Below are positions 12,761 to 49,013 of a stretch of 64,000 nt of DNA, piece by piece. The number at the start of each line of letters is the position of its first letter. Positions within the stretch are counted from its first letter, which is position 1. The position numbers were made by a program, and so were the translations under genes. The notes under the pieces were generated by a model, which ran no database searches, was not told the DNA's origin, and was given only the letters and a program-made list of their open reading frames with translations. The stretch is from Lepisosteus oculatus (Eukaryota > Chordata > Actinopteri > Semionotiformes > Lepisosteidae), in the NCBI RefSeq assembly GCF_040954835.1, contig NC_090709.1, forward strand, positions 45,578,490-45,642,489. The letters run 5' to 3'.

Positions 12761-15242
12761 TCACTGATCTCCTCCGTCAGACAGCAGAGCCTCTTCCAGA
12801 TTTGACTGGTCTTCAGGATCAGCTGGGGTCGACTCTCCACTGAGCTCCAGGACTGTCGATTCTTCTTCACCTGCAGGAGGCAGCTCACCATCATCCTCCT
12901 CAGATGGATATCCCGAGTCTCTCTTCTTCTTTCACAAAAACTGTGCCTGAAGGGATTCCTGCAGTAAAACTGGGAGAACTGGATCCACCGGGAACTGGAG
13001 TATAATGGAGTTTAACCACTGGAACAATCTCACTTCCTATACCATCGTCTTCCTCCATGCGCAGGGACACAGCATCACTGAGCCTCTCAGATACCTCAAG
13101 GATTCAATTTTCTTTATGGATATTAATATTGTTGCTTTCAGCTGGTATCATGTTTCTCTCCTCTCTCATCTTCCACTGGTTCTTACACACAACAGCACCC
13201 AGTCCAGCACCCATCAGCACAGCCACTATCGCAGTGATGACTGCAACACTTACAGGCCATGACACGCTGCTCATCTCTGAAAACACAAGAACAGAGACAG
13301 TCACACAGATAGCAAATCTACAACAGCAAGAAGGAAAAGAAAAACTATCCAGCAGCCGGTGTGAGAGAGTGTTCTTGCTGCCCAGTTTCACATCCCAGCT
13401 TAGAGCCCGAGAAACACCAGGAGAGGAACTGGAAAACTGCCGTCTCTGAAACACCAGCTGACACAGTGGACCTGTGTGATCGGCTTCAAACCATAAGAGA
13501 AAATCAGCACTGAAACAGCTCAAGTATTGTTTCTTCATAAGCAGGTAAGTTCAGGTGGAGATCAGTTTAACTCAGTTTGTCCTGTAATGAAGACTCACCT
13601 CCCCCAGTGACAGTGACGATCGCAGTGCTGATGGTGTTTCCCTGAAGGTCCCTCACTGTGTAGCTCCCCTGATCAGCTGGTGTGAGGGAGCGCAGTGTCA
13701 GAGAGCCGTCCTGCACCCACACTCTCTGCTCGTACCCGGGGCCAGGGAGCCCTGCGCTGCTCAGTAAGACTCCGGGAGACTTGGGCAGATCCTGCAGGAT
13801 CAAACAGCACCTCCACTGGAGCAGCAGTGTGGAGAGGGAGAGACAGATTGTCTCCAGACTGCAGGGTGAGGACTTCTGATTGAGCTGAAATTCATGGAAA
13901 GGAGCAGAGTGAAAGAATGATGCAGACAGCAATTCATCAGCTGTAAAGACTGCACTCACTCAGAGGAGACAGTATTGATCACATTTAAGTCTTGAGATTG
14001 AAGATAGTTTCAGAACAGCAACACTGATTTAGAGTTTTAAGTTCAAATATATTCAAGAACCTTAATGAAAAATCCTTCAATGTCAGGAAATCAATACCTC
14101 CTATTGACCCCACACATCAGGGACTGACACTTGTGAAAGAGTCACACTGTGCACATTCCCCACTGGAGCCCCACTCTCACCTCCCACAGTGACGTGGACA
14201 GTGCTGATGGGGTTCCCCTGGGAGTCCTGCACTGTGTAAGTGCCCCCGTCTTCAGCTCTCACAATGGAGATCTTCAGCACCTGGTCTTGAACCTTCAGCC
14301 TGCTGGAGTCTGGGGTCACAGTGCTGTCGAGCACAGAGCACAGCCTGCGAGACTCTCCTCCCTCAGGCCTGAACCACAGCTCTACAGCCTGCTGTGTGCG
14401 CAGAGGGACACTGAGGGGGTCTCCCCAGGAGAGACCGATGTTGTCCTCGTGTCCTACAGGAAGACGTGACAAGTGATCAGTCAGTCACATGGTTGTGTCC
14501 CAGAATTCCCCCTCAGTCATGGCCAGAATCAGGTGAAAATATCAGCCATGATCTTGGGATGAAGAAGAAGGAGTTTGGAAGAAAAAAAAATGCAAACAGA
14601 TGCTGTTGCACCCTAGAGAACAAAGAGGACTAACAACCGTAGGTCCGGTTAGTTGTCAGGAGTCATGGATCACTGTCCTGTACACAACTGAGTGTTCAGA
14701 TCGCAACAAAGAAAAAGATTACCTAGAACTGTGAGCTTCACATCTCCCAGGAATTTTCTCTTGCTCTTGTCATCCACAAATCGACACTCGTAGATATCCT
14801 GATCCGAGAATGTCACGTTATGAAGGATCAGGGAGAAATCTCCATCTCTGATCCTCTCTCTGGACAGCTCAGCTCTGTTCTCGAACCCTGGGTAAGTGTG
14901 GATTTGGCCACTGTAGAACTCCAGCACATGGTGGTCAGCAGTCTGCCACCGGATAATCTTTCTCTCCTCGGGAATATGTCTGTAGGAGCTCCCATCACAG
15001 GGCAGAGCGACTGTGTCCCCATAGAGCCCAGACACAGGGAGGAGAGCAGAGCACACTGGGAGACAGAGGACAGAGACAGAGAGACACTTCAGCTCCCTTA
15101 AAACACACAACTGTGAGACACAGCACTCTGGAGGTGACTGTACCTGCTTGTGGACAGCATTTCTTCACAGGCGAGCAAACGACAACTCTGATCTCTTACC
15201 TTGAGAGTAAAACACGGTCAGTACGATACCCAGGACCTTCAT
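12761..15242 (-). pseudogene. Gene E: B7/butyrophilin-like Ig receptor with broken second domain and tail
   Basis: Minus-strand membrane Ig protein. Exons: 15200-15242 (signal, MKVLGIVLTVFYSQ), 14723-15055 (V), 14181-14453 (Ig-like D1), 13599-13884 (Ig-like D2), 13104-13276 (membrane exon, stop TGA at 13104). All junctions are phase 1. The V domain has LPCDGSS and DIYECRF. D1 ends in GTYTVQD, where the usual YxC cysteine is absent. D2 carries a one-base insertion relative to gene F (gcccaag versus gcccag), so its frame breaks. Skipping D2 leaves an open 273-aa frame: V, D1, membrane. After the stop the same frame continues with an ITIM, LHYTPV, at 12993-13010, then an acidic tail relic down to 12761 with one more frameshift. 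F reads GGA where E has the stop. It may still act as a truncated receptor. Confidence 0.7.
12993..13010 (-). other. Stranded ITIM codons of gene E
   Basis: LHYTPV fits the ITIM pattern (L/V/I/S)xYxx(V/L/I). It lies in the membrane-exon frame but 31 codons past the TGA at 13104-13106. Gene G has Ser in place of this Tyr at 46672-46689. Confidence 0.75.
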
Positions 15243-15259
15243 GATGAGGGACCTGCAGT

Positions 15260-15480
15260 AAGATTGCAATATGAGTGAGGGAATTAAAGCTGAAAAGAAA
15301 ACCAGTGTCCAATGTGGTTTAAATAATCAGTTAGGAAAAATACAAAGTAAGAATGTTCTTTGTAAGATGATGAAAAGACACCAGGATCCAGCTACAAGGA
15401 GCACAGTAACTCGAACACATACAATGTAAAATGTTCTTCCACACTAGAACAGCAAGATAAACATGCACACATTTTCACTT
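15260..15480 (-). promoter_or_regulatory. Shared 5' flank of genes E and F
   Basis: The flank upstream of the E start codon aligns with that of F at 28765-28990 ('atgagtgagggaattaaagc', 'gtggtttaaataatcagtta', 'agacaccaggatccagc'). This is the region expected to hold the promoter. No precise element can be assigned, and the likeness may only reflect the duplication. Confidence 0.4.
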
Positions 15481-15483
15481 ACA

Positions 15484-15790
15484 GTGCCTTGCACAAGTAT
15501 CCAAACCCTTTAAAAGTTTACTAATGTTGCTGGATTACAAAAGACATATTTTTCCCCAACCAGTATTTGGACTGCAAACAGTCTGCATTTAAAGATAAAA
15601 CCAGTTATCTGCTGACAAATATCGTAAAGTCAAAACCCGAAATACAGTGCTTGCAGAAGTATTCAGACCCCACACATTAATATTTGGTAGACATTTTAAT
15701 ACAATAACAGCTTTAAGTCTTTTAGGGTACAGTAGGTGTCTACCAGTTTAGCACACTGGTTAGGAGTGATTTCCGCGCAGTATTACCGTA
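15484..15790. mobile_element. Degenerate Tc1/mariner-type terminal relic
   Basis: 'cagtgccttgcacaagtatc' and 'cagtgcttgcagaagtattc' resemble the terminal repeats of fish Tc1-like or derived non-autonomous elements. The related relic upstream of gene F starts at about 29000 in the equivalent position, so the insertion predates the E/F duplication. Confidence 0.5.
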
Positions 15791-18460
15791 ATGCCCATAA
15801 TACGAGCTCTCACAATCTGTTAATGCCAGTGAGACAGACTGAAGTACCAGATAGACTTCACGCAGTGATCTCACCCAGAACACTGCCCTGATACGACAGT
15901 TTCACGGAATAAACTTCTCACCTGAAGAGCTTTCAGATGAAAGCTACTCCTTGATAAAATGCTTTCTTGACCCCGGGCTCTAGAGCGCCTAAACTCGCTC
16001 TGCTTTGATGGAAGACGAATTTCGGCTAAGTGTGAACTGACCGGCGACAGAGGAGCAACAGCTCTCGGATCTCTTCCCCGCTCGTAACACCGTAAAATAA
16101 GTTTAATGCTGGTGCAGCTGAGCCTGCTTACCGCAGAACAACAGAGGGCTTCTTATCTTTTTGCGATTGCATGTGTAACCTTGTCTTAAGGGGAGCCAGG
16201 TTTTAGAACTGGGTACCGCTGTTCACAGCTGCCTTTACGAACTACAACTCCCATAAAAGCACTGGGCAACTTCCGGCACTCACAGCCGAGTGGGGGGGGG
16301 GGGGGGGGGGGGGCAGTCACTTACAGCCCAGGGGAGGAGCTCCTTTCTAAAGTTTATTTTCTAACCTCACGTTTAAACAACAGAATGATCTCTCATATTA
16401 CTACAACACACTTTTCACCCAGCGACTCGACACAATTCGCAAACGAGGGTCTGTATTCGTCTGTGACAACCCTCAGCCCCTGAATACACACTTCACAACA
16501 AAACTACACGCTGAATCCTTAAACTGAAACGGTGACAGCGGTAAACGAAACTTCAGACCTTTTAAAAAAGCACCTCATTACTTTGGGTTTACGGCTCTTA
16601 CCTACGAAATCAGAAGAACACCTCGGGAGGGTTTGCAGAGATATCTGCTGGTCCGGGGTACAGCAGGCTGGCAGCCGGGCGCTATGTCCTCACCCCTGGT
16701 TGGTTATTCGTGTAAAGCGATGGGAATCTCCTTCGCTGAAGTTTCGCACCCGGGATAGACCTCGACTCACCTTCCTGAGCCCAGAGACCGGCCGGGTACT
16801 GGAGTAAAGCACTGTGACTCTGTCATCGCACCACTGGCGCTGAACTAACAAGCTCAGGCCCAGGAGCCGCAGGGAAACATTAAATACCCCCCAGGCTAAC
16901 CACTCAATGTGGTACAGGACGCGCCAATCAACTTTAAGGCTTAAGGAAGGGGAGGGAAAGAACAAGCTTAAAAAGGTGTTTTGCAGTTAAGTGTCCTAAG
17001 GGGTGGGTACAATAGGAGTGGTTTGTATATCTCTGTCCTATGTATGTCTCCTACATAGTTTGCCGTTGGGTTTTTTTTAATGTATGGACTTAATGGCGAT
17101 GTTAGTCTCTCTATAAAAACAAAAGCGTAATCGCTGTGCTTCACTAAGCACGTTTGTCTAACTGGCTCCTCTTTATTTTCGGGGGGTCCTCATTTGTCAA
17201 GATATTCATGCTTTAACTGCCTGTAAAGTACTTTTACGGGTTTCTTCAATGATTCTTTTAAAAAAACGAGGCAGGAAACCGTGGTTCTCTACTTGACTCG
17301 TCCCCCGCTATTTTGACTAAGGAAAGGTTTACTCCTGTGCTGAATTATTTTTGTTAAAATTAAGTTTTTATTTAAACAATAAATATCAATAAAGTTATCT
17401 ATCTAAACACCAAAAAAGGAGACAGAATAGTGAACTATATACATTAATAGACACTTCACAGCCAGGGGAATTCACAATTGTAAAAATGTACAATTATTGT
17501 AAAAATTACAAACATTGTAATAAAGGAAACGTTGATGTTGAGTGGTGCACTGAGGTCTCTGGCGTTACGGGGTTTAAAAACTGCATTTTCTTTTAATTAG
17601 GAAACACGTCTCTATCGGGCAGCATGATAAGAGCTGCACTGTTTCGCCGGGTTGGCAAGAAACTACAGTAGAAGCAAAAGTCAGATTGGAGATTTCCTGT
17701 GGACATTTAATATGGATTAAACCTCAGTGGCTTCTTTTTGATTGCTGTGTAGCTTGTAAAAAATCTGTCCCTTTCCTTTAAAAATCGGATTTAAATTCCA
17801 TTTAGACACGCAGAAACAAAACCGGTGTATATATATCTAAAACACACCAAGTGTCTATAGATTAGTTTTCCTTGGGGGCCGAGACCACATCCCCCATTTC
17901 AACTTCAAGTTCTTTACAAACCTTTTTTCAGCTTTAAAAGGTTACTTACCGCAAATCGCCTTTGAACAAGTGAGCAAAAGTGAAGAACAGACGGGTGATG
18001 CCCTTTTTCCTTTAAGAGGGAAAAAAATGAACCGGAAAGGAGAGCCCAGATAAAAAAAAAGTAGTCTTTTTCTGGAGTGAGAACCGTGAACCGCTCTCGA
18101 AAACCAGGAGCTGGAAGAACGACTTTGTGAGCCGAGGTGAAGCAAGGATTACACCGGACTCGCTCGCTGTCTAGTGTGGGCAAACTCTCTCTCGCTCTCT
18201 CTCGGCTGCTCGGGAGAGTGCAGTGCTGCTGGCAGGTGATAACGGAGAAAGAAATACAGCGCCGTTTATAACTCCGCAAGTCTGAGTGTCTCTGTGTTCG
18301 TCCTCACCGAACCCGCATTCGTTACAATATTAGTTGGTCGGCCATATCGGCCACAGACATATCGTTACAATGTCTGTGTGCTCTTGCTTTTTGGCTCTGA
18401 CAGGCAGCAGATAGACCACAGCGGATTACGGAAATGAAGAGGGTTCAGTCACCCAACAGC
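15790..18460. other. Intergenic, no gene recognised
   Basis: Contains a run of about 20 G at 16293-16312 and AT-rich stretches around 17400-17520. Short open frames show no family signature. An undetected non-coding exon cannot be excluded. Confidence 0.4.
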
Positions 18461-18466
18461 ATGAAT

Positions 18467-20869: not shown

Positions 20870-21580
20870 AATAACTTGAATTGATGTAGTAATATTTACC
20901 CCCGACGATCTTTTTGTCTTGAATTGTTATACGTACTCTTGTTTGTATTGTAATTTTTATTTTGTTAAGCAGAAAAAAAGCAGTGTATATTAATGTTGGA
21001 TAGTGCAAAAGAGCAGCATGGGAGGATCAAAAAATTGTAGAAGCTGTTTTTTTTTTCCTAAACATGTTTCTGAAGCTCCAGTTGATAAGGAAGCTGGGTT
21101 CCCCCTACAGACAGCAAAGTGACCCACTCCAGCGTTTGACTGCTGCTGCTCTTCTCCCCGGGATCTAGAGCTGCCTGCTCAGCTGTGACGGCTGTGACCC
21201 ACCGATATGTTTGACTAAACATCACAACCAACTGTCCGTCTTCATGCAGCTGACGGCAGCACCGAGTGTTGAACTGGACTGGGAGATACGAGCTGCACCT
21301 TCAACTGGGGACCTTTGCAAATCCTAAATTATTGTATTACGCTGTTGTGGGATATTATGGTATTATTAATGTTGTCAATTAGTTTTTAACTGAGATTTTT
21401 TAATCGCAGGAAGCAGCTGGATGAGGTCACTTAACTGCTCACTAGTGGACCAGACTGGCCAGATGGCCTCTGCCTCTTGGTCTCTGGTCTTGTGTTGGTT
21501 TGGGTGGTGGTACCCCACATCGCCAAATACATTTCAGAGTTTCCCAGCTGTTCCTGACCCTGACCTTTTCTCTGTTTTCC
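20870..21580. other. Intergenic before terminal-exon module 1
   Basis: No gene recognised. A short plus-strand frame at 21421-21600 runs into the module but shows no known domain. Confidence 0.35.
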
Positions 21581-21581
21581 A

Positions 21582-21958
21582 GGTGTCATGGTGTCCCGGG
21601 ACAGGCTGGGAGGAGGTGACTGTGGCTGTGCTGACCGCTGAGCTCCTGGCCCAGGAGAGGAGGCCTGTCCAGCAGTGGACAGGAGGAAGACCGCTGAGCT
21701 CCTGGCCCAGGAGAGGAGGCCTGTCCAGCAGTGGACAGGAGGAAGACCGCTGAGCTCCTGGCCCAGGAGAGGAGGCCTGTCCAGCAGTGGACAGGAGGAA
21801 GACCGCTGAGCTCCTGGCAGTGAGCAGTGGACAGGAGGAAGACTGTGGGCTGGAGGTGTTGTAGCGCAGGTGAGGAAGGTGAGAGTGCAGAGAGGAATGA
21901 AAGTGCTTTGTATTTCACGACTTTCCAACTCTGAATAAAGTTTTCAGAAAACCTTTCA
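21582..21958 (+). other. Terminal-exon module 1 (splice acceptor to polyA signal) with 56-bp tandem repeat
   Basis: Starts with a good acceptor (ctgttttccag) followed by 'gtgtcatggtgtcccggga' and ends with AATAAA at 21934. Related modules occur at 30889-30996 and 50770-51100. Inside, a 56-base unit starting 'cgctgagctcctggcccagg' is present in three full copies (21636-21803) and one shortened copy. It looks like the 3' exon and UTR of a plus-strand gene lying 5' to the minus-strand family 2 genes. The upstream exons are not recognised, so the parent gene is unknown. Confidence 0.5.
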
Positions 21959-21999
21959 TGTGTTTGTGTTCATTAAGTTATTTCTGACATTTGGAATCT

Positions 22000-22890
22000 A
22001 ACCAGATGCCCATGGGTCAGTATAAATAGCACCGGGGCCCAGGTTTCAATTGTGAGTGTGTGAGTGTCCTGTGAGGGACTGGTGTCCTGTGATCCCACTA
22101 CACTCGGAAACCCAGGATCCATCTTACCACCACACTGACCTGCAGGGGAATCTCCCTCACTTCCCTGGAGAGGTGTCTGGACAAGAGGACCACGCCCGCT
22201 CTCTTCACGGAGGTCAAGACCACCGAGATTTCAGGGAGACCGTCTCTGGCCCCTGGGTGCCGGGGTTCGAATACAGAACAGGCTCCGAGGCCCAGATCTT
22301 CCAGGGGACCGACTCTTCTCGGCTCGGGGACAAGGAACAGCATCTGTCTGGATCTGAAGGGACAGCGGCTCTCAGGCTCCCACAGAGAGATCAGAAAACT
22401 GGGACTCAAAGCTTCCGAAATAAGAGCGCCTTTCAAAGACAAAGGACAAACAAGCCCCTTGTGTCTTTTCCCCCCCTTTTATTGAAAAATTAAAATCTTT
22501 TACAAAAAGGGTTCCAAAGAGAACCTTTATCGCTTACTGACACCAGTTCTCTTTTGAACGAAGACTGTCCTGCTCAGTCTCAGGTTTGGGGAAAAAGTAT
22601 CTGGAATATCACAGCAGCAGTATTGCATAATCTGGAACATATTTTAAGTGTCTGCTTTGTGATAAAAATTTACAACTTGGTTTATTGCATCTTCTTCTCC
22701 TCTGAATCTGAATTTGATCAGGCTCCATATTAAAGCAACATTCTTTCTCTCAGAACTGGGACATGGCCTCCTGTAACAGTCACAGTTCCCTCATACTGCC
22801 AGCACCCAACACAATGACAGCGCTTGAAGAATAAAAGTAAGGCCACCAACAGGAAGAGGATATTGGTAGTTAATGGCTCATTGATGATTC
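22000..22890. other. Intergenic, unclassified open frames
   Basis: 22056-22493 is open on both strands. It begins with a piece of the tgtcctgtga...ggactggtgtcc repeat. No domain is recognised, so I do not call a gene. Confidence 0.35.
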
Positions 22891-22895
22891 TTTGC

Positions 22896-23062
22896 CAAGG
22901 ATCTGCTTCAACCACAAGGCTGGGCAGCTTGTTCCCCACCCCCACCACCCTTTGTGTAAAGAAGAGCTTCCTGCCCTGACTTCTCTGCAGCTGTGTGTGG
23001 AGAGAAGCCAGGGTATCGGCTTCAACCACACGGCTGGGCAGTTTTGCTTCCCACTCCCACTG
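22896..23062 (+). repeat. R1 repeat copy
   Basis: Two overlapping units with GGCAGCTTGTTCCCCACCC and 'gagaagccagggtatcggct', in the same orientation as the 3.0-kb copy. Confidence 0.7.
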
Positions 23063-23079
23063 TCCACACAATAACCTTT

Positions 23080-24594
23080 TATGTACCTTGGGTGTGCAAT
23101 GAATAACACTCACATACAGTACATGGCACATGTATTGAAGCCATTCCAGTGGGGAGCCTGTACAGGCTCCACAGGAAAAGGTAATGGTTCATTCCACAGC
23201 TCAGGGCAAGCTGCAGATCAATAAGGCACAGGAGAACAGCAGGAGCAGGGAGGAGAAGGGCATTTAGCAGGCGGGAATGAGCCCCAACTCGGGGAGAAGA
23301 GGAGGAAAGGTCTGGAAAGCCGAAACCTTCATTGGAACTGAACAAACTCCTACTGAACGAAGCCACAAGTGAATCTGCCGGTTTCAGCTTTCCACTCCTC
23401 CCCGAGACTGGACGATAGCAGATCTGCTGCACACCCCATCTCTCATTCGCACCTGGAGACGAGGGCCCCACAGACAAGCTGCAGCATGAACCTTGACCTG
23501 CTTTTATAAACAGGCCTAGTCAAAGCCCCGATCTGAAATCTCAAAACTGACAAGAAAACTTCATGTAAATACTGCACAAACCCACAGAGTTAAAATCCCT
23601 CTGGTTCATATGGCTTCAATAGACACATCTCACAATTATCAACACAACATAAATCTATACAAAGAAAAATTCACAAATACATAGATAAAAAAAACTTCTA
23701 GACAGCTGAAGGTCAGATTTGAACCCAGGTTTGAAAGCCACATGTATCTGACACTTCAAAACGCCCCAAACCCCTCAGTACAAACCCCATACATCCATTC
23801 ATTCCAACTGTCAACACTGAACATTTTCCACACTCAGTTTGTACAGCAGCAACTGTATCAGTGTGGATGTGACACCCCATAGACAAAAATCCCATCAACG
23901 CAAAACCACAAAACCATGAAATTCATATGAAAGCTCAACCACAGGGCACAAGACATGAAAACATGTACCGAAAACATATAAAATTACAAAAACCCTAGTA
24001 GGTACACACCCAATGGGTATTTTTTTACCACACTACAGGGGAAATCGCATCATGGCTTGTAATCTGTTGGCAGCTACACTGGAAACACTGCCACTTGATT
24101 ACTGACACTCAGCAACACCGTATATCTCCCAGTCCCACATAATACAGTCTAGATTCTTCTGCAACCATTCATATTATTCAGCAAACCATTTTTAAGAATA
24201 TTTTTTAATCCCAGAAATTATATTGTTTACCTTCCCACTTTGGGACACTCAGGAGTTTTGTATCCAGAATCACTTCTATATAAGTGCTTTAAAACTCTTT
24301 GAGCAATATAAAAAAATCTCCTAGGTGTCCAGATTTATACTCTGTGAATGACTGGCATTAACCTGTGCACAAACCAATTCATCATTTAAAAAAAACAAAT
24401 CTCTAATCAGTGCATAATCCAGCCTGGAGTGTGTGATGTTTCCAGTAAGACATATAGAGATGTTGCATTAGTGCAATGATACACTCAAAACACTCAGATC
24501 TGATCGATTCAGTGCCGAGTGTAACATAAAAAAAACGTCCAAAGGAACGTTCCTAACACACTTCCTTCTAGATATGTGCATATGAAAATAAGAC
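23080..24594. other. Intergenic, no gene recognised
   Basis: AT-rich after 23520. Only short frames without family signatures are seen. Confidence 0.4.
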
Positions 24595-25340
24595 ACATCA
24601 ATACTGTGAATTCCCTCTGCAGTCTTCTGCTCTCTCTCTCTCCAATTTTTCAGTTATTCCCGAAATCCCACAGGACACAGAGGCACTTAGGCTTCTGGTA
24701 ACTTGTGTTTTGGTTCCTGAAAAACAGTGGAGCCGATTCTCCAGTATTAAGTACTCTGTCAGTAAAATGTACAATCCCAGATCAAGATTAGTGCTACAGG
24801 GAACTGGGGGAGGTATTGAGCACGACAGACCGGCGGATCTGAGGAAGTCAGGAGAATGAGGATTTGAGAGAGGAGAGCAGAAGACCATCGCTGTGGAGTC
24901 AGACTTGACAGAGTGCAAAGAGCTTCGTACTGTCTCAGTGAATGGCACACACCATAGACCATCACAGACTCCTGCTGGGGTCATCCCTCAGCACCGTGGA
25001 GCGCAGTCTGGAGTTAACAGAGGGAGCGACGTGTATCAGGACACATGACCACCCCCAGCCTGAAGGGATGTTCCTAACGCACCTCCTTCTGGATATGTGC
25101 GAAGGAAAATAAGACTTACATCAATACTGCTGTGCATTCAATTTTGGGAGTTAAATTAATAATCTCCCAAATTCATAAAATTAAGTTAAACTCATGAAAT
25201 CCTTTCCAAAGGACCTGAAAGTGCTTTACATATAGGAGGGCACTGTTCACCGTGAACCTCAGACTGTTCAAGCTCTGATCTAGCCAGGAATGTGGTCAGG
25301 ACACTGATTATTAATACTGCTAATCTGGCCATGTTCAACT
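24595..25340 (-). repeat. Dispersed repeat R2, second copy
   Basis: Reverse-complement partner of 4241-4990, sharing the same landmarks in inverted order. Confidence 0.6.
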
Positions 25341-25429
25341 ATTTCAATGGGTCCTTGACTGTCGTGTGGATAAACTACTCTTTTGCTTGACAAAAAGCTC
25401 TCTGGTGGATTTTTACACAGACAAACGAC

Positions 25430-26165
25430 ATTATATACTGATGGAAAAAAGAAACGCAACACCCCCTCCTCCATACTCTGGCCCTCTCGTCTGCATGGAA
25501 CTGGCTGGAGAGGTCCTGATGACCCTGCTGACAAGTCCAGCACAGCCTCTGTCTGGCCCAAGCCAGTCGGGTGCGACGTCTAGGAGGTGTGAGCAGAGGG
25601 CCTCTGACAGGTCGCTTTGCTCTAAGGCCAGCAGCATGGAGCCTCACTGTCCTGTCACTGATGCGGGCACTGTGTCTGCCGGCAGTTTCAGCAGCAGTAT
25701 GGGTGGCAGATCTGAAACGATCTCTCAGATGGACAAGTCTGATGTGTCGGTCCTGCTCTGGTGTGGTCACTCGAGGATGACCGGATCATCTGTCCTGCCC
25801 GTCTGCTGAAACGTTCTCTGCAGTCAGGACACAGTGGAGCGGCTTACTCCATAGTGTCTGGCAATGCTGGCACATGACATGCCTGCCTGCAGCATGCCAA
25901 TGGCCCTCTCCCTTGCTTCTGGTGACATTCGAGGCATTATGGAATGCACAGCAAACTGACTAAGTGTGGCCTTTTTCTTGTAGTGACCTCAGCTTTGAAT
26001 TAAGGCCTTTTTAAAGGTGACCTGATCAGGCATTGTTCCACCTGGACCTCGTTGGGTAAAAGTGCACCTAACGAGCTTTCGTGTGATTGGCAAGTTGCAA
26101 TGCCTCACTGCACAAGCTGTACTGCTGGTCAGAGGGCTTAAAACAAATTGACAAGCTATAACTAT
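25430..26165 (-). mobile_element. Degenerate Tc1-like transposon with internal deletion
   Basis: Minus-strand frame from ATG at 25937 reads MPRMSPEARERAIGML, then SIARHYGVSRSTV, which is the Tc1 N-terminal helix-turn-helix, and hits a stop. Further down, TTPEQDRHIRL and ARVWRRG match later transposase segments. The part holding the second and third catalytic acidic residues is missing. The left edge 'ctgatggaaaaaagaaacgc' resembles a terminal repeat of this family. Inactive. Confidence 0.7.
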
Positions 26166-26169
26166 AGGA

Positions 26170-26330
26170 GGCTGCAAGTAACAGGTTTCTTCCGGTGCTG
26201 AAAAGAGAAGAAAGAAAACACAACGTTTCGGCTGTGGAGCCTTCTTCAGGTGTGAGCCGAAAAGTTGTCTTATCTTCTTGTCTTGCTCCTTTGCAGCCTA
26301 CGCATGCTGACGCAGCTCCCCACCTTAACT
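26170..26330. mobile_element. Penelope-like terminal hairpin relic
   Basis: Reads 'acaacgtttcggctgtgg' and 'agccttcttcaggtgtgag', matching the left arm of the 62.4-kb element. It then turns into the reverse complement of that element's outer edge ('cagcctacgcatgctgacgc'). The result is a small solo remnant of a Penelope-like end with no coding part. Confidence 0.6.
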
Positions 26331-26396
26331 ACAATAACTATAGTATTCTCATTCCCGAAAATGTTGCACTTCTTTTTCCCCCCATCAGTATATTTC

Positions 26397-26890
26397 TTAA
26401 AACGTCCTGTCTGATTGCTCATCCAAGCTAACGAGCCCTGGACTGTACCCCAGTGAGCAGATCAAGGGCTCTGTGCAGCACTGACCCGACCGCAGGCTGA
26501 GCTTGGCTCCGGACCAGAGCTTCAGAGCGATGTTCAGCATGACGACCACAGATGCTTCCATGAGCTCAAGCCCCCTCTGTCTCGTCTGCAGCACGAACGC
26601 TGGGCTCAGGAAGAAGGTGGAGAATTTGACAACAGACTTGCACTGACGGTTTCCTGTCTTGTGTCTGTTGCTGTGTCTCTGCTGGGCTGTGTGCTGGTTT
26701 ATTCCTATCCACCCCGGAGGGCACCGTCAAGCAGAATTTGGATCAGAAACTACCCAAATGTGTCCAAAATATCCCAAGGTGATGGTGAGAAACAAAAATG
26801 TGTAAAACTGGTCTGTGCTCCGTTTTTGTAAGACGCCTGTAACCCCACCGTTTTTTTTTCTCAAATATCAGATGCTTTTGATTCTGCACA
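26397..26890. repeat. 3' flank of gene F, partly duplicated at 40.9-41.3 kb
   Basis: 'gatgttcagcatgacgacca', 'aaggtggagaat', 'tttcctgtcttg' and 'cagatgcttttgattctgca' recur in the same order at 40938-41270. Confidence 0.6.
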
Positions 26891-26957
26891 CATCAGTGAG
26901 CTTTTCAGATTCCTCAAGGTGTCCGTTTTCTTTACGGTTATTAACAATCTTGCTCTT

Positions 26958-28746
26958 TCAGTCCTCACAACAACGCTTAACACACCCAATACAGCACATC
27001 AGCACAACCAACACTGCAACAGTGATTCCAACAATTGCAGGCCATGACATGGTCGTTGCGTCTGAAAAAAAAAACAAGAACAGAGGCAATTCAATATAAA
27101 CAAACCTAGAACAGCAAAATGAAAAATATCCAGCAGCCGGCGTCTGAGACACAGAGCTTTCTACATCAGTAAGGGATCTTGTTGTCAAGAATCACATCCT
27201 GAAACATCTCTAATTGCAGCTCAGAACCCGAGAGACGCCATGAGAGGGGCTGGAAAACAAGACAGTCTCACTCTCATATCTGAAACAGCAGCAGATGGTT
27301 TCACACTACAGAAGAAAATCAGCACTGAAACAGCTGGAGCAGAGGGCTAATCTCAAGTCAATTTTATTCATGCAGTTGCTTGATTTTGTCTACTGAGATT
27401 GAATGATAAAAGACATTTACTTTAGGTGAAGATGAGTTTAACTCATAGTTTTTCCTGTACTAAAGACTCACCTCCCACAGTGACGATCACAGTGCTGATG
27501 ATGTTTCCCCGAAGGTCCCTCACTGTGTAGCTCCCCTGGTCAGCTGGTGTGAGGGATCGCAGTGTCAGAGTGCTGTACTGCACCGACACTCTCTGCTCGT
27601 ACCCGTGGCCAGGGAGCCCTGCGCTGCTCAGGAAGACTCTGGGAGACTGGGCAGATCCTCCAGGATTAAACAGCACCTCCACTCGCTCAGCAGTGTGGAG
27701 TGGGAGAGTTAGATTGTCTCCGGATAGCAGGGTGAGGACTTCTGATCGAGCTGAAATTCAAGGTACAGAGTAAGACTGATTCATTCAGCAAATTATCAGC
27801 CTGAGAGACTCTCCTCCCTGAGGCCTGAACCACATCTACAGCCTGCTGTGTGCACAGAGGGACACTGAGAGGGTCTCCACAGTAGAGACTGATGTTCTCC
27901 TCATGCATTGACAAATGATCAGTCAGCAACAATAGGAAAAACGCAGTGTTCTCCCAAAATTCCCAGACTCTCCTGAATAGAGAATTCAGCAACGTAACCC
28001 GACACCGTCTGAGTTGAGCCCCGGCCATTATAATGAGCTAAAATTTAGCAACAACCCTTTTCTGTGGTTTGGGATAAAAGAAATGTAGAAGAAAAATCAG
28101 ATATGCCCAAATATAAAAGAGGAAAAACAGCTGTAGGGATCCTTTCTCTTACAGAACCGATTTCCTCAAACTGCTCGGATCACAAGGAAGGAAAAGGAGA
28201 TTACCTATAACTGATGTGAGCTTCACATCTCCGAGGAATTTCCTGTAGCCATTTTCATCCACAGTTCGACACTCGTAGGTATCTTCATCTGAGAATTTCA
28301 CATTATGAAGGATCAGGGAGAAATCTCCATGTCTGATCCTCTCTCTGGACAGCTCAGCTCTGTTCTCAAACCCATTGTAAGTTTGGATTCGTCCTCTGTA
28401 GAAATCCACCACGTGGCGGTCGGCAGTCTCCCAATGTATAATCTTTCTCTCCTCAGGAATGTGTCTGTAGGAGCTCCCATCACAGGGAAGAAAGACTGTG
28501 TCCCCATAGATCCCAGTCACAGGGTCGAGAGCAGAGCACACTGGGAGACAGAGGACAGAGACAGAGAGAGACTCAGAAACACAAGTCAGACATCAGCTCC
28601 CTTAAAACAAACAACAGTGAGACACAGCACTCTGGACGTGACTAACTGCTTGTGGACAGCATTTCTTCACAAGCAACTTCACACAACAACTGTGATCTCT
28701 TACCTTGAGAGCAAAACACCATCAAGACAACAACCAGGACCTTCAT
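26958..28746 (-). CDS. Gene F: B7/butyrophilin-like Ig receptor lacking D1
   Basis: Best-preserved family 2 copy. Exons: 28704-28746 (signal, MKVLVVVLMVFCSQ), 28205-28540 (V), 27472-27750 (D2), 26958-27061 (membrane, stop TGA at 26958). Lengths 43, 336, 279 and 104 give an open 253-aa frame. The V domain has LPCDGSS and DTYECRT. D2 has LTLPLHT and GSYTVRD, so both usual Ig cysteines are absent. The membrane segment is in SWPAIVGITVAVLVVLMC, followed by VKRCCED. The D1 exon is a relic at 27795-27920: its acceptor and 3' half are deleted and a two-base deletion shifts its frame, so it should be skipped. After the stop the frame continues briefly (RKENGHLEESEKLTD), a vestige of the long tail of E and G. 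Ligand unknown. Confidence 0.72.
27795..27920 (-). pseudogene. Relic of gene F D1 exon
   Basis: Matches the first half of the E D1 exon ('gacactgagagggtctcc', 'gcctgctgtgtgc'), then jumps straight into the intron before D2. The CTTCCTGTAG acceptor seen in E and G is missing. Confidence 0.75.
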
Positions 28747-28994
28747 GTTGAGGGACCTGCAATACGATTGCAATATGAGTGAGGGAATTAAAGCTAAAAA
28801 GAAAATCAGTGTCCAACGTGGTTTAAATAATCAGTTAGGAAAAAATCAAAGTAAAGTTCTTTGTAAAATAATGAAAAGACACCAGGATCCAGCAACAAGG
28901 AGTAAATTCTACAAATAAAAAAAGGAAGTTATAATAATGTTCAATAAGTTCTTTCAACACTATAACAGCCAAGTACGTGCACACATTTATTTTC

Positions 28995-29760
28995 ATCCAC
29001 AGTGCCTTGCAACGATATCCAAACCCTTTATACGTTTACAAAAGTTGCTGGATTACAAAATATACTCGCACATCTTTTTCCAGTCAGAATGGGGATGGCA
29101 AACAGAATAAGCAGTTGCCAAATCTGCTGCCAAATATCGAAAAGTCAAAAACTGAAATATAGTGCTTGCAGACGTATTCAGACCCCACACAGTCTCACAG
29201 GGCACAGGAGGTGTGTACGAGCTCAGCACACTGGTTAGGAAAGATGCTCACTCACGGTTATGGGACAGCGCCTGAGGACCCCAGATTCTGGCTGGGGTTG
29301 AGGTGGGGACTTTGACTTTTATTGACTGGTCCACTCGAGGACATTCAGCTTGTCTTTCTTGAGCCACACACCCATGCTGCTCCAGCCCTGAATGTGGCAT
29401 CACCGACCTGCTCCCAAGCGTCGGATCCTCAGCAGACTGAAACAGTCCCCCCCCAGTGCATGATGCTGCCTCTGTCACGCATCACTGCAGGGACATGGAC
29501 TGGTCAGCCTAGCGTCACACACAGCTCTTTGAATTTGGGTCCAAAAAGCTCTATCTTGGTCTCATCCAGGTGCAGACCCTTTTCCCAAATCCTAGCTCAA
29601 TCACGCTTGTGTTGCAAGCTCCAGAGAGACTGTAAGACGGTTCTTTCTGAGCAATGGTTTTTTTCTTACAACCCTCTCATACTGACCGGCGTTATGCCGA
29701 GAGAGTTCTGGATATCGTCGACTGACGCACCTTGACTCCACTCTGAGCCCCTGAGCTCCT
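28995..29760. mobile_element. Degenerate Tc1-derived element
   Basis: Starts with 'cagtgccttgcaacgatatc'. It contains 'gcatgatgctgcctctgtcacgc'-type text followed by 'aatttgggtccaaaaagctc' and 'ttggtctcatccaggtgcag', as in fish Tc1-type elements that carry a reversed transposase (dispersed copies read '...catgatgctgcca...'). No intact frame is left. A shorter counterpart stands upstream of gene E at 15.5 kb. Confidence 0.5.
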
Positions 29761-35594: not shown

Positions 35595-38500
35595 ATGGAC
35601 ACTGTGCGGACGACATATAACCCGCTCTTCCTCTGTGAGTAGATATATTTGTATAGATGTTTGTTTCGTTAATAGGCTTCAGTCAACAAAGCAGTGAATT
35701 ATAATTGTTTTATACATTCAAACATTATATTGGGCGGCATGAGAGTTTCTGGGGTCAGTGATTCTCCAGTGCTCTGTCTTCTGCAGGGCTGTACTTGTAT
35801 ATAAAGATGATGTATAACATGTTTACAATATGTATTACCCGTATATGTACAGGTGTATACAACGTATATAAAGACTGAGTATAAAGTATATAGTTGTGAG
35901 TTGTATATAAAAACAGTATATAAAATATACAGCTACTAGATTTATATAAAGACAGTATATAGGTATGTAGCTGTTCGTTGGATATAAAGACAGTATAAAG
36001 GTATGTAGCTGTTGGTTGGATACAGTGTACCGAGCTGAGTTACACGGTTGATCTCTGGAAGAAGCAGCCAGCTCTCTCCCGGAGGGAAGTAACTCGCTAT
36101 CAAGCAATTAAATAGCGCGAAGGCACAAGGGGGTTTGTTCAGTTGAGATGAGCTGCCACAGAAAAAAAAAAGTCTAAAATAATTTACAGTTAGCTTCACA
36201 AAACTGCATGCGAAGTTTGGATTATCACACTGAAGTCGAACTTTATTCGACGTCAATAAAAATGGCACAACAGGTGATGTACGTTTTTGGTTACCTTGAA
36301 ATTATCCGAAACTGCCGAAAAAAGTTCGAGATTTTATTATATTTTTATGTTATATTTATATTCTATTATTATACTTTTTATTATATTGTTCCAGAATTTC
36401 CAAACATGGTCAATTTTCACAAATTTCAGGGGAAAAAAATCAATATTAAACAGTAACATGAAAGTTGTTTCCCTCTAGAGGTATTTAACTCTTGGATCAG
36501 TCGTGAACTGGTGACGCGGTACTTAATAATACCAGAAAGATGGAATAAAACCCAGAAATTATGGTCATATGTAACTGTTCTGTTCATTATGTTTAATAAG
36601 AATGATCTGAATCAAAACTACTGTATTGTTCAGATCGCAGAGATAGATCTTGTATCCTGACGAGTTTCTGAACGGACTGACGCGAGTTTCATGTCTCAGA
36701 TGTCTTCCTGGCGTGGGAACTGTTCGCTGGCTCGGCCGCGATGGTGGAGCTGCGGGTCCGAGCCGGAGACACGGTCACCCTGCCCTGCGGCATCAGGCAC
36801 CAGAAGGAGACGCTGTGGGTGATACAGCGCCCCCTGGAGGTGCCGCTCATCGCCGCCGTCGCCCGGATTAGCAACTCTGAAATCACCAAGGAGGTGGAAG
36901 AGGAGTACCGGTCTCGCCTCTCCCTCGTCCTCGAACCCTCGACCCTCTCCGTCAGCCTGACGCTCGCCAACCTGACGGAGTCCGACCGGGCGCTGTACTA
37001 CTGTGCCGACAGAGTCTACGGGCGGCTGCGCTTTGGAAACGGGACGGAGCTCGTCTTCCCCGGTGAGCCCCAGCCACCGCCCGACACCCCGATAACCCCT
37101 CACGCACGCTAACACGCAACTGCAGTTCCAGTCTGTGCACATATTCCCCTGCACAGCACAGACACCCTGGGGTCCCATTCCTCCACTATTCAACACTGCA
37201 GTCTTGTTCGGTACCTGTTTCGGTTTTGACATGTTTATACTCGACACCGGCTGCGTTCCATTTTCACACCTGCTTAGTGTGAAATCGTTTCCCTTTACCT
37301 GATTTTACTGTGCTTTATTACAGCTTAGTTAGAGTCATTTAGGCACCCAGAGAAACCTATAATACCAATATCATGGAAAATGAACAGTGTCCTGTCCATA
37401 TTTCAGCGGCAGTGAAGATGTTGTGAATTAGCCTCTCACCTGCTCTTTGTCTTGTAGAAAACTCCTCCTTGGAAGAACCTGACCAGACACTGGTCAGTCC
37501 CAGTAAGTGATTCTTCACGTCTGAGCTGTTACTTCAGAAAGCCTGTCCAGCGGCAGTGAAGATGTTGTGAATTAGCCTCTCACCTGCTCTGTGTCCTTTA
37601 GAAAACTCCTCCTTGGAGGAACCTGACCGGACAGTGGTCAGTCCCTGTCCCTGCCTGACGTGCTGGACTCTTCTGCCCTCTGTGAGTGTGGTCTGTGCCA
37701 TCGTGTCCTCTGTCTGTGTTTTCTCCTGCGTTTCCCTTAGAAGAGGTAAGAGTGTTCACACTGCTGTGTTTTATTATGAAAAGTGAAATACAATTTGCGC
37801 AAAAGCTGCTGTTAGTTAGGAAAACATCAACAGACACGCAAAAGCGTGAAAGCTAAATCATTGAGATACTGTAGCATTTACATTTGCTATGGTTTCATGA
37901 AGGTTTCAGGGATATGAATGTTGTATCTGGACTCACTTTAACATGACGATAAAACACGAGAAAACACTTTAAAAACAAAAGCAACAATTGAGTACTAAGT
38001 ATTTGGGCCGACATTTTTCAGGGCTGAAACTGGGATTTCGTATTTGTGATGCTAAAGATTACATCAAAATATTATCTTACAACCAGGAGAGCGAAAAGAT
38101 AAAAATAACGATGAAACTGAACCAAAGCCTTATCCTTTTATAACAGCTTGCTGGAATTGACCTTTTTCACACTGGTTTTCTGTCAATCCCCGATATGAAA
38201 AGTCACTGTGTATAACAATGATTATTTTACTAGTTGCATCAAAGCAGGAAGACGTATTTTAAATTTGACATACAGTCAGCGCCAGCCGGTTACATTTTCT
38301 TCTCTTTCTCTGTTACCTGACAGATTAACAAAAACATCTTTCACGGTGCTGTTCAGATGTGTAGAACAATAATTTCCTTTTATTTTCTGGTCACCTTTTG
38401 TCTGAGACAAAAAGTTATTTTAACTCTGGTTCTCCATACAGTAGGTTCTCAGTGTACTAAGTAATGTATTGTGATACATGTATTACAGTCACTGTTGGTC

Positions 38501-41285: not shown

Positions 41286-41574
41286 GACAAGTGGTGCCTT
41301 CCTGTACAGAGGACACAAGACCGGTCACAAACGAGAGGTAGCTATAGGGCACAGCTGGCCCGATGGGTAGTTAGCAGTTAATCAATCTGAAGGTCTCAAC
41401 TAGAAAAAAGTAAATCACAGATCTTCTGCAGCTTGTTCCATAACCCCACTAGCCTCTGTGTAAAGAAGAGCATCCTTTGCTGATACTAACCTTTTTACCT
41501 GAATAAAACTCACTCAGTGCAACAAGGTGGAGCAATGATTATTATTTCTGCCTTGCAGCTTTGAAGCCTTGGGC

Positions 41575-41810: not shown

Positions 41811-41859
41811 CTTACCTTGCGCCTATTGCTTGCTGGGATAGTCTCCCCTCAACCCTATG

Positions 41860-43855: not shown

Positions 43856-43857
43856 TG

Positions 43858-44285: not shown

Positions 44286-44372
44286 GAAGCACAGTCTGGC
44301 TCAGGGTCTGTCAGCGGCACTTAACTCCACAACACTTCCAGTCACTCACAAAGTAACACAGTGAACGTTATA

Positions 44373-45925
44373 CAGTGGTGTGAAAAAGTGTTTGCCCCCT
44401 TCCTGAGTTCTTATTTTTTTGCATGTTTGTCACACTGAAATGTTTCAGATCATCAAACAAATTGAAATATTAGACAAAGATAACACAAGTAAACACAAGG
44501 TTTTTATTATTAAGGGAAAAAAAATCCAAACCTACATGGACCTGTGTGAAAAAGTTCAATTTCTCTAGCCACATCCAGGCCTGATTACTGCCACACCTGT
44601 TCTCAATCAAGAAATCACTTAAAAGGACCTGCCTGACAAAGTGAAGTAGACCAAAAGATCCTCAAAAGCTAGACATCATGCTGCGATCCAAAGAAATTCA
44701 GGAACAAATGATAAACGGAGTAATTGAGATTTATCAGTCTGGAAAAGGTTATTAAGCAATTTCTAAAGCTTTGGGACTCCAGCGAACCACAGTGAGAGCC
44801 ATTATCCACAAATGGCGAAAGCATGGAAGAGTGGTGAACCTTCCCAGGAGTGGCCGGCCGACCAAAATTACCAAAATTACCCCAAGAGCGCAGCAATGAC
44901 TCATCCAAGAGGTCAGAAAAAAACCCACAACAACATCCAAAGAACTGCAGGCTTCACTTGCCTCAGTTAAGATCAGTGTTCATGACTCCACCATAAGAAA
45001 GAGACCGGGCAAAACTGACCTGCATGGCAGAGTTCCAAGACGAAAACCACTGCTGAGCAAAAAGAACATAAAGGCTCGTCTCAGTTTTGCCAGAAAACAT
45101 CTTGATGATCCCCAAGACTTTTGGGGAAAATACTCTGAACTGACGCGACAAAAGTTGAACTTTTTGGAAGGTGTGTGTCCCATTACATCTGGCGTAAAAG
45201 TAACACAGCATTTCAGAAAAGGAACATCATACTAACAGTAAAATATGGTGGTGGTAGTGTGATGGTCTGGGGCTGTTTTGCTGCTTCAGGACCTGGAAGA
45301 CTTTCTGTGGTAAATGGAACAATGAATTCTGCTGTCTACCAAAAAATCCTGAAATAGAATGTCGGCCATCTGTTCGTGACTTCAAGCTGAAGCGCACTTG
45401 GGTTCTGCAGCAGGACAATGATCCAAAACACACCAGCAAGTCCACCTCTGAATGGCTTAAGAAAAACAAAATGAAGACTTTGGAGTGGCCTAGTCAAAGT
45501 CCTGACCTGAATCCGATTGAGATGTTGTGGCATGACCTTAAAAAAGCGGTTAAGGCTCGAAAACCCTCCAATGTGGCTGAATTACAACAATTCTGCAAAG
45601 ATGAGTGGGCCAAAATTCCTCCACAGGGCTGTAAAAGACTCATTGCCAGTTATCGCAAACGCTTGATTGCAGTTGTTGCTGCTAAGGGTGGCCCAACCAG
45701 TTTAGGTTTAGGGGGCAATCACTTTTTCACACAGGGCCATGTAGGTTTGGATTTTTTTTTTTCACTTAATAATAAAAACCTTCATTTAAAAACTGCATTT
45801 TGTGTTTACTTGTGTTATCTTTGTCTAATATTTCAATTTGTTTGATGTTCTGAAACATTTCAGTGTGACAAACATGCAAAAAAAAAAGAAATCAGGAAGG
45901 GGGCAAACACTTCTTAACACCACTG
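44373..45925 (+). mobile_element. Tc1-like DNA transposon, full length, transposase broken
   Basis: 1553 bases bounded by inverted ends (cagtggtgtgaaaaagtg at left, its complement at right) and by TA on both sides (44371-44372, 45926-45927). Inner direct repeats around 44520-44554 and 45723-45758 give the IR/DR layout. The transposase starts at 44678 (MLRSKEIQEQM) and retains the paired-like DNA-binding part (TTVRAIIHKWRKHGRV), MVWGCFAASGPG, QDNDPKHTS and DLNPIEMLWHDL. In-frame stops (first at 44753) and several frameshifts inactivate it, and the first catalytic TDE reads TDA. Confidence 0.92.
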
Positions 45926-45929
45926 TAGA

Positions 45930-46228
45930 GCTGAAACATGTTACACCCAATTTTTTTTTTACAGTTTACAAAAAGACACGAATAAAGCAGGTGAGGGCCT
46001 TAAGCAGATTCTCAGGACGACCAGCAGGCCTACTGGTTCAGCTGCCTGAATTGCACACCTACTGTATAAAACATACTTAAACATCACACTACAAGAAACA
46101 AAAAAATAAATTAAAGCTTAAAAACAGCATTGCGGTAAACGGGGAAGAAAAGCTTAAATATCCCATTTCAGCAATTAGTTAAAATGTGAAATTAATGAAC
46201 CCCGCGGGTTACAAGACTTGTGGTCGGG
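45930..46228. other. Intergenic between Tc1 element and gene G
   Basis: Short AT-rich stretch with no gene. Confidence 0.4.
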
Positions 46229-46452
46229 TTCAAATCCCATGTCCAGCTGCAGAGGGAAAAGTCCATTCAGAATCCAGGACCCGCCCCTAGGGGGCGTGAG
46301 TGTCCAGGCTCCTTGTTCACACAGCTTTGATTGTGTCCTGCAGCTCAGCTCTTTCCCCGATTTTATCAATGTTTTGTTCAAGGCAACCCAGCGAATCTGG
46401 TAAATTATCCACGCAGGAGGTCAATTAGAGTGGTTTTCTGTGAGGACTTGAT

Positions 46453-49013
46453 TCAGCTCTGTGACACAGGGATCAGGTCAGGAGCAGCAGGCAGGAGAGG
46501 GGCCCCTCCATGTGAAAGTGAGGTTCCTGTGGGGAGAGTCGCCCCTGAATGAAGATCATCATTCTCCTCCTCCATATAAAATCCTGAGTCTTTTCTCTGC
46601 TCTGGGTCTTTCACAATAACTGTGTCTGAAGGGCTTACTGTAGAAGCACTGGGAGAACTGGATCCACTGGGAACTGGAGTAGAATGTACAATTACCATAA
46701 TCTCTTCTCCTTGTCCATCGTCTTCAGCATCAGTGAGCCTTTCCAATTGTGATTCCTCCAATTGTCTGTTTTCTACATTGCTATCAACACCGTGTTTCTC
46801 TTCTCTCTTCTCTTGAGCCACTTATTATAGAGAACAAGGCCCAGTACACCTCCCACCAGCACAATCACTGGCACAGAGACACCAGTAACAATTCCAGGCC
46901 AAATCTCTGAAAAACAGGAAAGAGAGAATTTAATGGGAGCTGCAGTCCCAGTTTTGTCAGGCCAGTTATTAAATCTCAGTAACCAAATAAATTAATTGAC
47001 AGTACCACAAAATTTTAATAATTCCAAATAAAGCACTAAATCAGGTACTATGGGAAAGTTGGCCTTGATCTTGCCAATGGCAAGAATTGTGACGTGATGC
47101 GGCTCTTCCTGCTCACTAGTCACAGTGATGACTAGCAATGTACTGAGATGATCGAAGTACAGATTGTGCAGCAGATATTTCACTGATCAAGTAAATTGTA
47201 TTTAAACAGTTGCTTGATTTTGTCTACTGAGATTGAATGACAGAAGCCAATTAATTTAAACTAATCTGCATCTAACTCAATTTTTCCTGTAATGAAGACT
47301 CACCTCACCCAGTGACAGTGACGATCGCAGTGCTGATGGTGTTTCCCTGAAGGTCCCTCACTGTGTAGCTCCCCTGATCAGCTGGTGTGAGGGAGCGCAG
47401 TGTCAGAGAGCCATCCTGCACCCACACTCTCTGCTTGTACCCGGGGCCAGGGAGCCCTGCGCTGCTCAGTAAGACTCCGGTAGACTTGGGCAGATCCTGT
47501 AGGATCAAACAGCACCTTCACTGGAGCAGCAGTGTGGAGGGGGAGAGACAGAGAGGCACCAGGCTGCAGGCTGTGGACTTCTGATTGAGCTTTAATTCAA
47601 GGAAAGGAGCAGAGTGTAAGAATGATGCAGACAGCAATTAAACAGCTGTCAAGACTGCACGCACTCAGAAGAGAAAGTATGTCTTGAAATTGAAGATAGT
47701 TTCATAACAGCAACACTGATTTAGAGTTTTAAGTTAAAATATATTCAAGTGCTATAATGAAAAATCCTTAAATATCAGGAAATCAATACCTAATCACATT
47801 TAGCTCCTATAAATGCAGATGTCAGGGACTGACACTTGTGAAAGAGTCACACTGTGCACGTTCCCCACTGGAGCCCCACTCTCACCTCCCACAGTGACAT
47901 GGACAGTGCTGATGGGGTTCCCCTGGGAGTCCTGCACTGTGTAAGTGCCCCCGTCTTCAGCTCTCACACTGGAGATTTTCAGCACCTGGTCTTGAACCCA
48001 GGCCTTCAGCCTGCTGGAGTCTGGGGTCACAGTGCTGTCGAGCACAGAGCACAGCCTGCGAGACTCTCCTCCCTCAGGCCTGAACCACAGCTCTAAAGCC
48101 TGCTGTGTGCGCAGAGGGACACTGAGGGGGTCTCACCAGGAGAGACTGATGTTCTCCTCATGTCCTACAGGAAGACATTGACAAGTGATCAGTCAGCAAG
48201 ACCAGACAAGTCACATGGCCTTCTCCCAGAATTCCCTGTCTGTCCTGAAGAGTGAATTCAGTCAACATTGTTTAAGCTGAACCCCGGCTAAAATTCACCA
48301 AGGGCCCTGGTCTGGGGTTTGGGATGAAGGAGAAGGAAGAAAAATTATAAACAGAAGATGCTGGTGCACCCTAGAGAACTGAGAGAGAAAACAACCGTAG
48401 GTCAGGTTAGTCGACACGAGTCAGGAATCACTACACTGTAAACACCCGATTCCCTCAAACTGCCCGGATCACAAAGAAGGAAAAGGAGATTACCTAGAAC
48501 TGTGAGCTTCACATCTTCGAGGAAGTTCCTGTTGCTCTTGTCATCCACAAATCGACACTCATAGATATCTTCATCCAAGAACGTCACGTTATGAAGGATC
48601 AGGGAGAAATCCCCATCTCTGATCCTCTCTCTGGACAGCTCAGCTCTGTTCTCGAACCCAGGGCCAGTGCAGTTTAGCCCTCTGTTGAACTCCAGCACAT
48701 AGTGGTCAGCTGTCTCCCACTGTATAATCTTTCTCTCCTCCAGAGTGTCTCTGTAGGAGCTCCCATCACAGGGTAGAGCAACTGTGTCCCCATAGAGCCC
48801 AGATACAGAGAGGAGAGCAGAGCACACTGGGAGACAGAGGACAGAGACAGAGAGAGACTTCAGCTCCCTTAAAACACACAACAGTGAGACACAGCTCTCT
48901 GGATGTGACTGTAACTGCTTGTGGACAGCATTTCTTCACAGGCGAGGGAACTAGAACTCTGATCTCTTACCTTGAGAGTAAAACACCGTCAGGACGATAC
49001 TCAGGACCAACAT
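46453..49013 (-). pseudogene. Gene G: family 2 Ig receptor with both cysteine-less domains broken
   Basis: Exons: 48971-49013 (signal, MLVLSIVLTVFYSQ), 48494-48826 (V, intact), 47886-48164 (D1, with TGG TGA where E has TGG GGA), 47304-47589 (D2, same one-base insertion as E, a stop at its end and a weakened acceptor), 46773-46906 (membrane: IWPGIVTGVSVPVIVLVGG..., stop TAG). The long acidic tail is open in a shifted frame from 46818 to 46453, with SSSPS and DSGFYMEEEND. The tyrosine of the E ITIM is Ser here (VHSTPV). Signal, V and membrane exons spliced directly would give an open 169-aa frame, a possible minimal receptor. Mostly pseudogene, but a V-only product is conceivable. Confidence 0.7.

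Follow-up and report, generated by a model that had tools for sequence, protein, structure and literature searches.

What do the members of a clustered immunoglobulin (Ig) receptor family still encode once their domain exons have been broken, and does splicing rescue them? The question is raised by a 64,000-nucleotide stretch of the Lepisosteus oculatus genome (C14:45578490-45642489, hereafter the window), the minus strand of which carries three members of a single gene family: E (15242-13104), F (28746-26958) and G (49013-46773). They consist of a 43-nt signal exon, a V exon of 333 or 336 nt, two further domain exons, D1 (absent in F) and D2, and a membrane exon. The exons have AG/GT borders, the internal joins are in phase 1, and V, D1 and D2 are all phase 1-1, as stated in the original prediction. 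That prediction also suggested that the three genes can splice around their broken exons and may thereby encode receptors of graded ectodomain length over the same kind of V domain. We consider it probable that the locus instead reflects birth-and-death decay in a modular, KIR-like family, in which F has become a two-domain receptor by deletion and E and G are damaged copies that would be mostly unproductive.

In F, most of D1 is gone from the DNA. Between the open V exon (28205-28540, minus strand, as are all features of E, F and G) and the open D2 exon of 279 nt (27472-27750) lies a D1 remnant of 109 bp (27797-27905), which is joined to the end of intron 3 and has neither acceptor nor donor. 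In the V-D2 intron, no sequence resembling a donor scores above the 95th percentile. Since most of D1 and its splice sites are deleted from the DNA, V-D2-membrane is the expected default transcript of F and needs no skipping. The V-D2-membrane frame of 253 aa proposed for F is open, with its junction from 28205 to 27750 exact in the sequence, while the proposed skipping of a ruined D1 falls away, as there is nothing to skip. A signal exon (28704-28746) and a membrane exon with a tail of approximately six residues (26958-27061) complete the gene.

The regions around E and F (approximately 11444-16688 and 21166-29538 of the window) are duplicated 93-95 kb upstream as L039 and L052, respectively, and the duplicate of the F region spans 8.4 kb at 97.2% identity. 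L052 shares the D1 deletion of F and L039 shares an inserted D2 base with E, and both lesions are therefore older than the duplications. A second, independent D1 deletion is present in L053; F, L052 and L053 are shorter genes by DNA.

Leaving out L052, private substitutions in F amount to 5/105 in the D1 remnant, 40/286 in intron 2 and 28/295 in intron 4, whereas the full D1 exons of the 13 other genes tabulated have 0-4 of 273. Neutral simulations were run under one substitution model with 0-0.2 indels per substitution (introns and flank in the window give 0.06-0.27). In these, the F frame stays open by chance with a frequency of 0.009-0.14 at 3-5% drift and 0.0003-0.013 at 7-9%. Of the three genes, only F has a short form whose openness is informative in its own right, and this depends on the bracketed age of the D1 loss. 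F is thus probably a two-domain receptor (V-D2-membrane), whose short form would be functional and produced by default after the loss of most of D1.

The receptor character of the family was assessed from its domains. E, F and G match the V-set profile with 45.4, 40.7 and 36.6 bits, respectively (Pfam cut-off 26), and the V cysteines C19 and C90 are invariant in all three. The best solved-structure matches of the E V domain are generic (MXRA8, JAML, MOG, CD4, CD80, CD276, PD-L1 and butyrophilins), and the AlphaFold model of V, with a pLDDT of 38.7, was not usable. D1 of E and D2 of F are 41% identical, lack the usual cysteine pair and score under every Pfam cut-off. For D2 of F, the modelled structure (pLDDT 71) is similar to Ig domains in the PDB (best E 2.2e-5), by which an Ig fold is predicted. 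NITR have a J-like FGxG motif after V and a cysteine-bearing I domain. Identity with NITR was rejected, as the V domains end, by eye, in FLGDVKLTVL (E), FLGDVKLTSVI (F) and FLEDVKLTVL (G) and the cysteine pair is missing from D1 and D2. The best 19-residue membrane segments of E, F and G contain no charged residue of the kind that marks activating receptors. Likewise, their read tails contain no immunoreceptor tyrosine-based inhibitory motif (ITIM, [SIVL].Y..[ILV]) of inhibitory receptors. An ITIM-like LHYTPV is read in two of the eight long tails in the family (L040 and L049; first 139 residues scanned).

E and G differ from F in that the damaged exons are still in place. E has a signal exon (MKVLGIVLTVFYSQ, 15200-15242), an open phase 1-1 V exon (14723-15055; Pfam V-set 1e-11) and an open D1 exon of 273 nt (14181-14453). 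Its D2 exon (13599-13884) has 286 nt versus 285 in most intact relatives and is frameshifted by this one base, with splice dinucleotides intact. The membrane exon (13104-13276) runs up to its own TGA, where relatives continue into a long tail, and is followed by a cytoplasmic-tail relic (12760-13103) with an additional frame change and an unread LHYTPV. G comprises a signal exon (48971-49013), an open V exon (48494-48826), a D1 exon with an in-frame TGA and good splice scores (47886-48164) and a D2 exon with the frameshift of E, a second TGA near its end and a weakened acceptor, TTAAAG (47304-47589). Its membrane exon (46773-46906) ends in TAG, and the adjacent tail-like frame (46453-46772) is not in frame with it. 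The cytoplasmic tails of E, F and G are each truncated by a lesion of their own, i.e., an in-frame TGA in E and in F and a frameshift in G.

The prediction for these two genes was reproduced exactly as far as the frames are concerned: with D2 skipped, E has an open V-D1-membrane frame of 273 aa (junction 14181 to 13276), and G, broken in both D1 and D2, has an open V-membrane frame of 169 aa when both are skipped (48494 to 46906). The idea that each paralog lost a different exon was wrong for E and G, which carry an identical one-base insertion in D2. L039, the duplicate of E, has it too, and in addition has three further indels in D2 and lacks 10 bp of the membrane exon. The TGA codons in D1 and near the end of D2 are specific additions in G.

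Apart from the inserted base, D2 of E has no private substitution (0/285, L039 left out), as would be expected if the lesion were a polymorphism or an assembly error and most E alleles were whole. We regard this as highly improbable, since the same base occurs in three separate places, in E, G and L039. The E lesion looks young, yet it predates the E/L039 duplication, and because of this apparent youth the open remainder of E says little: in the simulations it stays open by chance with a frequency of 0.26-0.78 at 0.35-1.35% drift. Private substitutions in the damaged exons of other genes number 0/273 in D1 of L041, 1/244 in D2 of L044 and 4/277 in D2 of L040. In G they number 12/285 in D2 and 4/273 in D1, and its remainder stays open with a frequency of 0.05-0.51 at 1.5-5% drift. 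G is apparently older in its damage than E, but its open remainder is weak evidence as well.

The divergence between E and G changes sharply along the genes, from 8/273 in D1 over 31/283 in intron 3 and 35/333 in V to more than 50% in intron 4 and the 5' flank. V of G is 4/333 from L053, and D2 of G is 14/286 from E but 40/285 from L053. L053 (C14:58.6 Mb) is near-identical to G from the 5' flank through intron 3 and L050-like from D2 onward, and looks chimeric, as would result from shuffling of exons between family members. Such sharp changes represent exon swapping, and pairwise rates therefore cannot simply date the lesions. G would be a mosaic and further-decayed copy. Because of the recombination, three apparent signs of selection were set aside: pairwise dN/dS among E, F and G (0.35-0.72 in V, 1.0-1.25 in D2) as selection on kept frames, the three open signal and V frames (chance at most 0.00013 at 11.5% drift and at least 0.05 indels per substitution), and the lesion-free core of signal, V and membrane exons (chance 0.03-0.08).

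The open frames themselves do not discriminate. As every domain exon is phase 1-1, an open frame after skipping carries no evidential weight, and all tested skip combinations leave the frame open through the membrane exon in the intact genes L042, L046 and L049 as well (3/3 genes). If E nevertheless skips D2 and G skips both D1 and D2, the three genes would be membrane receptors of three graded lengths with open frames, an account that we hold to be unlikely. Splice signals, scored with position frequencies, are consistent with it in that the D2 acceptor is the weakest (0.8 bits in E and F and -0.8 in G versus 2.6-9.5 for the V, D1 and membrane acceptors). However, intact paralogs have the same weak D2 acceptor, and the D2 donor of E is that of intact paralogs. 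The last 25 bases before D2 differ from most intact genes by one base in E, two in G and none in L040 and L044. The best in-frame cryptic acceptor within D2 of E (13676, 0.7 bits) is similar in score to the true D2 acceptor and would retain the last 78 nt only, and cryptic donors inside D2 of G are low-scoring only.

Several observations weigh against decay, and some of them speak for skipping. Changes in codons were counted relative to the nearest intact copy, for V in six of the nine damaged genes of the family (E, F, G, L040, L041 and L044; the near-duplicates L039, L052 and L053 were omitted) and in eight of the nine intact genes (L043 omitted). V is not relaxed in the damaged genes, with 48 synonymous to 93 replacement changes (p 0.002 against neutrality), which is not different from 40:96 in the intact genes (p 0.44). 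In E, L040 and L044, D1 has 6:4 and D2 1:14 (p 0.007; 0.019 without codons near indels), a contrast absent from intact genes (p 1.0), and D1 looks constrained and D2 free in these three genes. Intron 3 of E is missing 12 bp that L049 and L042 have; outside this gap, it has 3/292 differences from L049. Both skip frames, of E and of G, remain open by chance with a frequency of only 0.018-0.060 at 2.5% drift each. For F, no purifying signal was found in D2 (15.5 replacement to 6.5 synonymous changes).

The counts lean mildly towards skipping in E-type genes, although the D1-D2 contrast is one of several tests with small counts, and it was down-weighted because, by eye, other paralogs share many of the D2 differences; most of those in E, likewise by eye, occur also in L049 or elsewhere in the family, and none is private to E. 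In D2, the ratio is 4:26 in E, G, L040 and L044 versus 14:30 in intact genes (p 0.098), and the membrane exons are without constraint in either the damaged or the intact group (ratios of 0.9 and about 2). Intron 4 of E has 13/322 differences from L049, and small intron gaps of other kinds are present in L040 and L044 (four pairs compared). Against the skipping account stand, moreover, the loss of the membrane frame in L039, the chance openness of the E remainder and the need for G to lose a well-scoring D1 exon. What stands of the predicted graded set is a shorter receptor from F, by DNA deletion instead of splicing. It is not established for E, with D2 splice sites near-identical to those of intact paralogs and a young-looking lesion, and it is least likely for G, which requires two skips. 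Reduced receptors from E and G are possible.

Under birth-and-death decay, the default transcript of the recently damaged E would retain the shifted D2 and be degraded or give little product, and a V-D1-membrane receptor would come from E only upon D2 skipping. The usual limit for decay lies 50-55 nt upstream of the last junction. The stop in the unskipped transcript lies 74 nt before the last junction in E and 533 nt in G, which is also the range in the genes tested (74-533 nt). Unskipped products would comprise 286 aa in E (V, D1 and part of D2), 135 aa in G (V) and 224 aa in L040 (V and D1). As translation would end within D1 or D2 and not reach the membrane exon, such proteins could be soluble, secreted decoys if full-length transcripts evade decay, and this would also account for a constrained V and D1 beside a free D2. 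It is very unlikely, given that all these stops lie past the decay limit and that the membrane exons are still open in E, G, L040 and L044.

The wider family was retrieved by searching the host genome assembly (1.2 Gb). The search with the E V domain gave 75 matches (150 of 158 candidates scored) and that with D1 147 matches (150 of 325 scored), and 150 of 273 candidates were scored for D2. Sixteen close paralogs beyond the window and four distant relatives were retrieved, and exon states were read for all 19 close genes. Among the matches listed, there are 19 close V exons (76-100%), including E, F and G, and all are on C14; no fourth V exon of this family was found in the window in DNA and protein searches with the E, F and G exons. 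Some of the paralogs are as much as 99-100% identical in V. D1 and/or D2 is broken in 9 of the 19 genes (E, F, G, L039, L040, L041, L044, L052 and L053). The broken D2 exons represent three lesions (the shared base in E, G and L039, -8 in L040 and -41 in L044) and the broken D1 exons four (the deletion shared by F and L052, the other deletion in L053, the stop in G and +1 in L041), i.e., at least seven separate lesions.

Every exon is open in another nine genes (L042, L043 and L045-L051), and the whole frame, assembled for L042, L046 and L049 only, is open in all three. V is broken in L054 alone, the retrieved stretch of which contains no membrane exon. L047 has an additional domain exon, which was left out of splicing. 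Among the matches listed, all 16 close D1 exons (at least 89%) fall in genes located by V, as do 14 of the 17 D2 exons of at least 78%, with the other three in the distant loci L055-L057. D2 of G and of L044 are absent among the D2 matches listed, and no close copy that lost V outright was found among the D1 and D2 matches listed. Without the damaged exon, the membrane frame is kept in eight of the nine damaged genes and is shifted in L039. A long tail is read in 8/18 genes (163-190 aa including the membrane part) and a shorter one in 10/18 (32-109 aa, among them L043, L045 and L050) through several different stops.

Taken at the level of genes, this would be a cluster of 19 related fish genes for type-I Ig receptors, with a signal peptide, a V-set domain, cysteine-less D1 and D2, a membrane segment and in some members a long tail. 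Its turnover would involve duplications, both tandem and segmental, recombination that exchanges single exons, and frequent lesions in D1, D2 and the tail. Of interest, the usual signal exon has lost its start codon and donor in L040, L046, L048 and L051. These four share an upstream 43-nt signal exon in correct phase, MKVLRSVL[AT]LVCFP, with candidates in L045 and L049, which suggests that one signal exon has been replaced by another within the family.

The closest known system is that of the primate KIR (lineage III 2DL1-3/2DS, lineage I 2DL4/5 and macaque KIR1D), which, in the passages available, are likewise encoded by gene clusters in which each Ig domain has an exon of its own, and have domain-loss forms and both long and short tails. 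In passages on lineage III KIR, exon 3 with a 5-bp deletion is constitutively skipped with splice sites intact, perhaps due to a 33-bp loss in intron 2 (PMC7516082, PMC6288254), which is a precedent for skipping here. Damaged domain exons kept in the gene, as in KIR pseudoexons, are present as D2 of E, G, L039, L040 and L044 and as D1 of G and L041. The KIR differ in that skipping is documented by transcripts, whereas here it is a prediction, and in domain make-up, with V plus cysteine-less Ig domains here; no orthology is claimed. A convergent KIR strategy, in which graded ectodomains over a conserved V result from the phase 1-1 exons, the weak acceptor of D2, the loss of exons by deletion, the tolerance of pseudoexons and tails that are either long (some ITIM-like) or short, is doubtful. 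The 12-bp difference in intron 3 and the LHYTPV motif give slightly more weight to this strategy and to skipping, and slightly less to decay.

Among fish receptors, the ectodomain is also varied in the long, short and supershort isoforms of zebrafish Nitr9 (PMC3463160), there by splicing; as far as the passages on Nitr9 go, V is cut or lost in one alternatively spliced gene, whereas here V is kept and D1 or D2 is lost in separate genes. Passages on salmon NILT and medaka NITR describe fish Ig multigene clusters holding pseudogenes, among them a NILT pseudogene whose Ig1 contains a stop (PMC3022915, PMC2442602). Their domain make-up is different, and those passages class damaged copies as pseudogenes, with no mention of skipping. 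No published description of the present family was recognised in the literature searched, although one may still exist. Expression of the skipped forms would make the family a convergent example, outside mammals, of the modular reduction of receptors, for which the 19 paralogs of a single genome would serve as natural replicates. Without such expression, the family would be a warning to genome annotation that damaged genes with phase 1-1 Ig exons easily look rescuable.

D2-like exons are much amplified beyond the family, with all but one of the 150 scored matches on C14 (approximately 3.9-59 Mb). Around 100 of these, scattered over C14, hold a stop, mostly one TGA (by-eye count), and at L059 (C14:14709200-14710900) a broken D2-like exon is followed by a second related domain. 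The window also contains four V exons of another family at 1663-2001 (minus strand), 7470-7808, 36735-37067 and 57819-58128 (plus strand). The first three are open and the last is split across two frames; they end in FGNGTELVF-type sequences, a motif by which we take them to be NITR-like. Reading frames at approximately 44900-45845 and 62810-63382 are presumably Tc1-like transposase and GIY-YIG-like, respectively.

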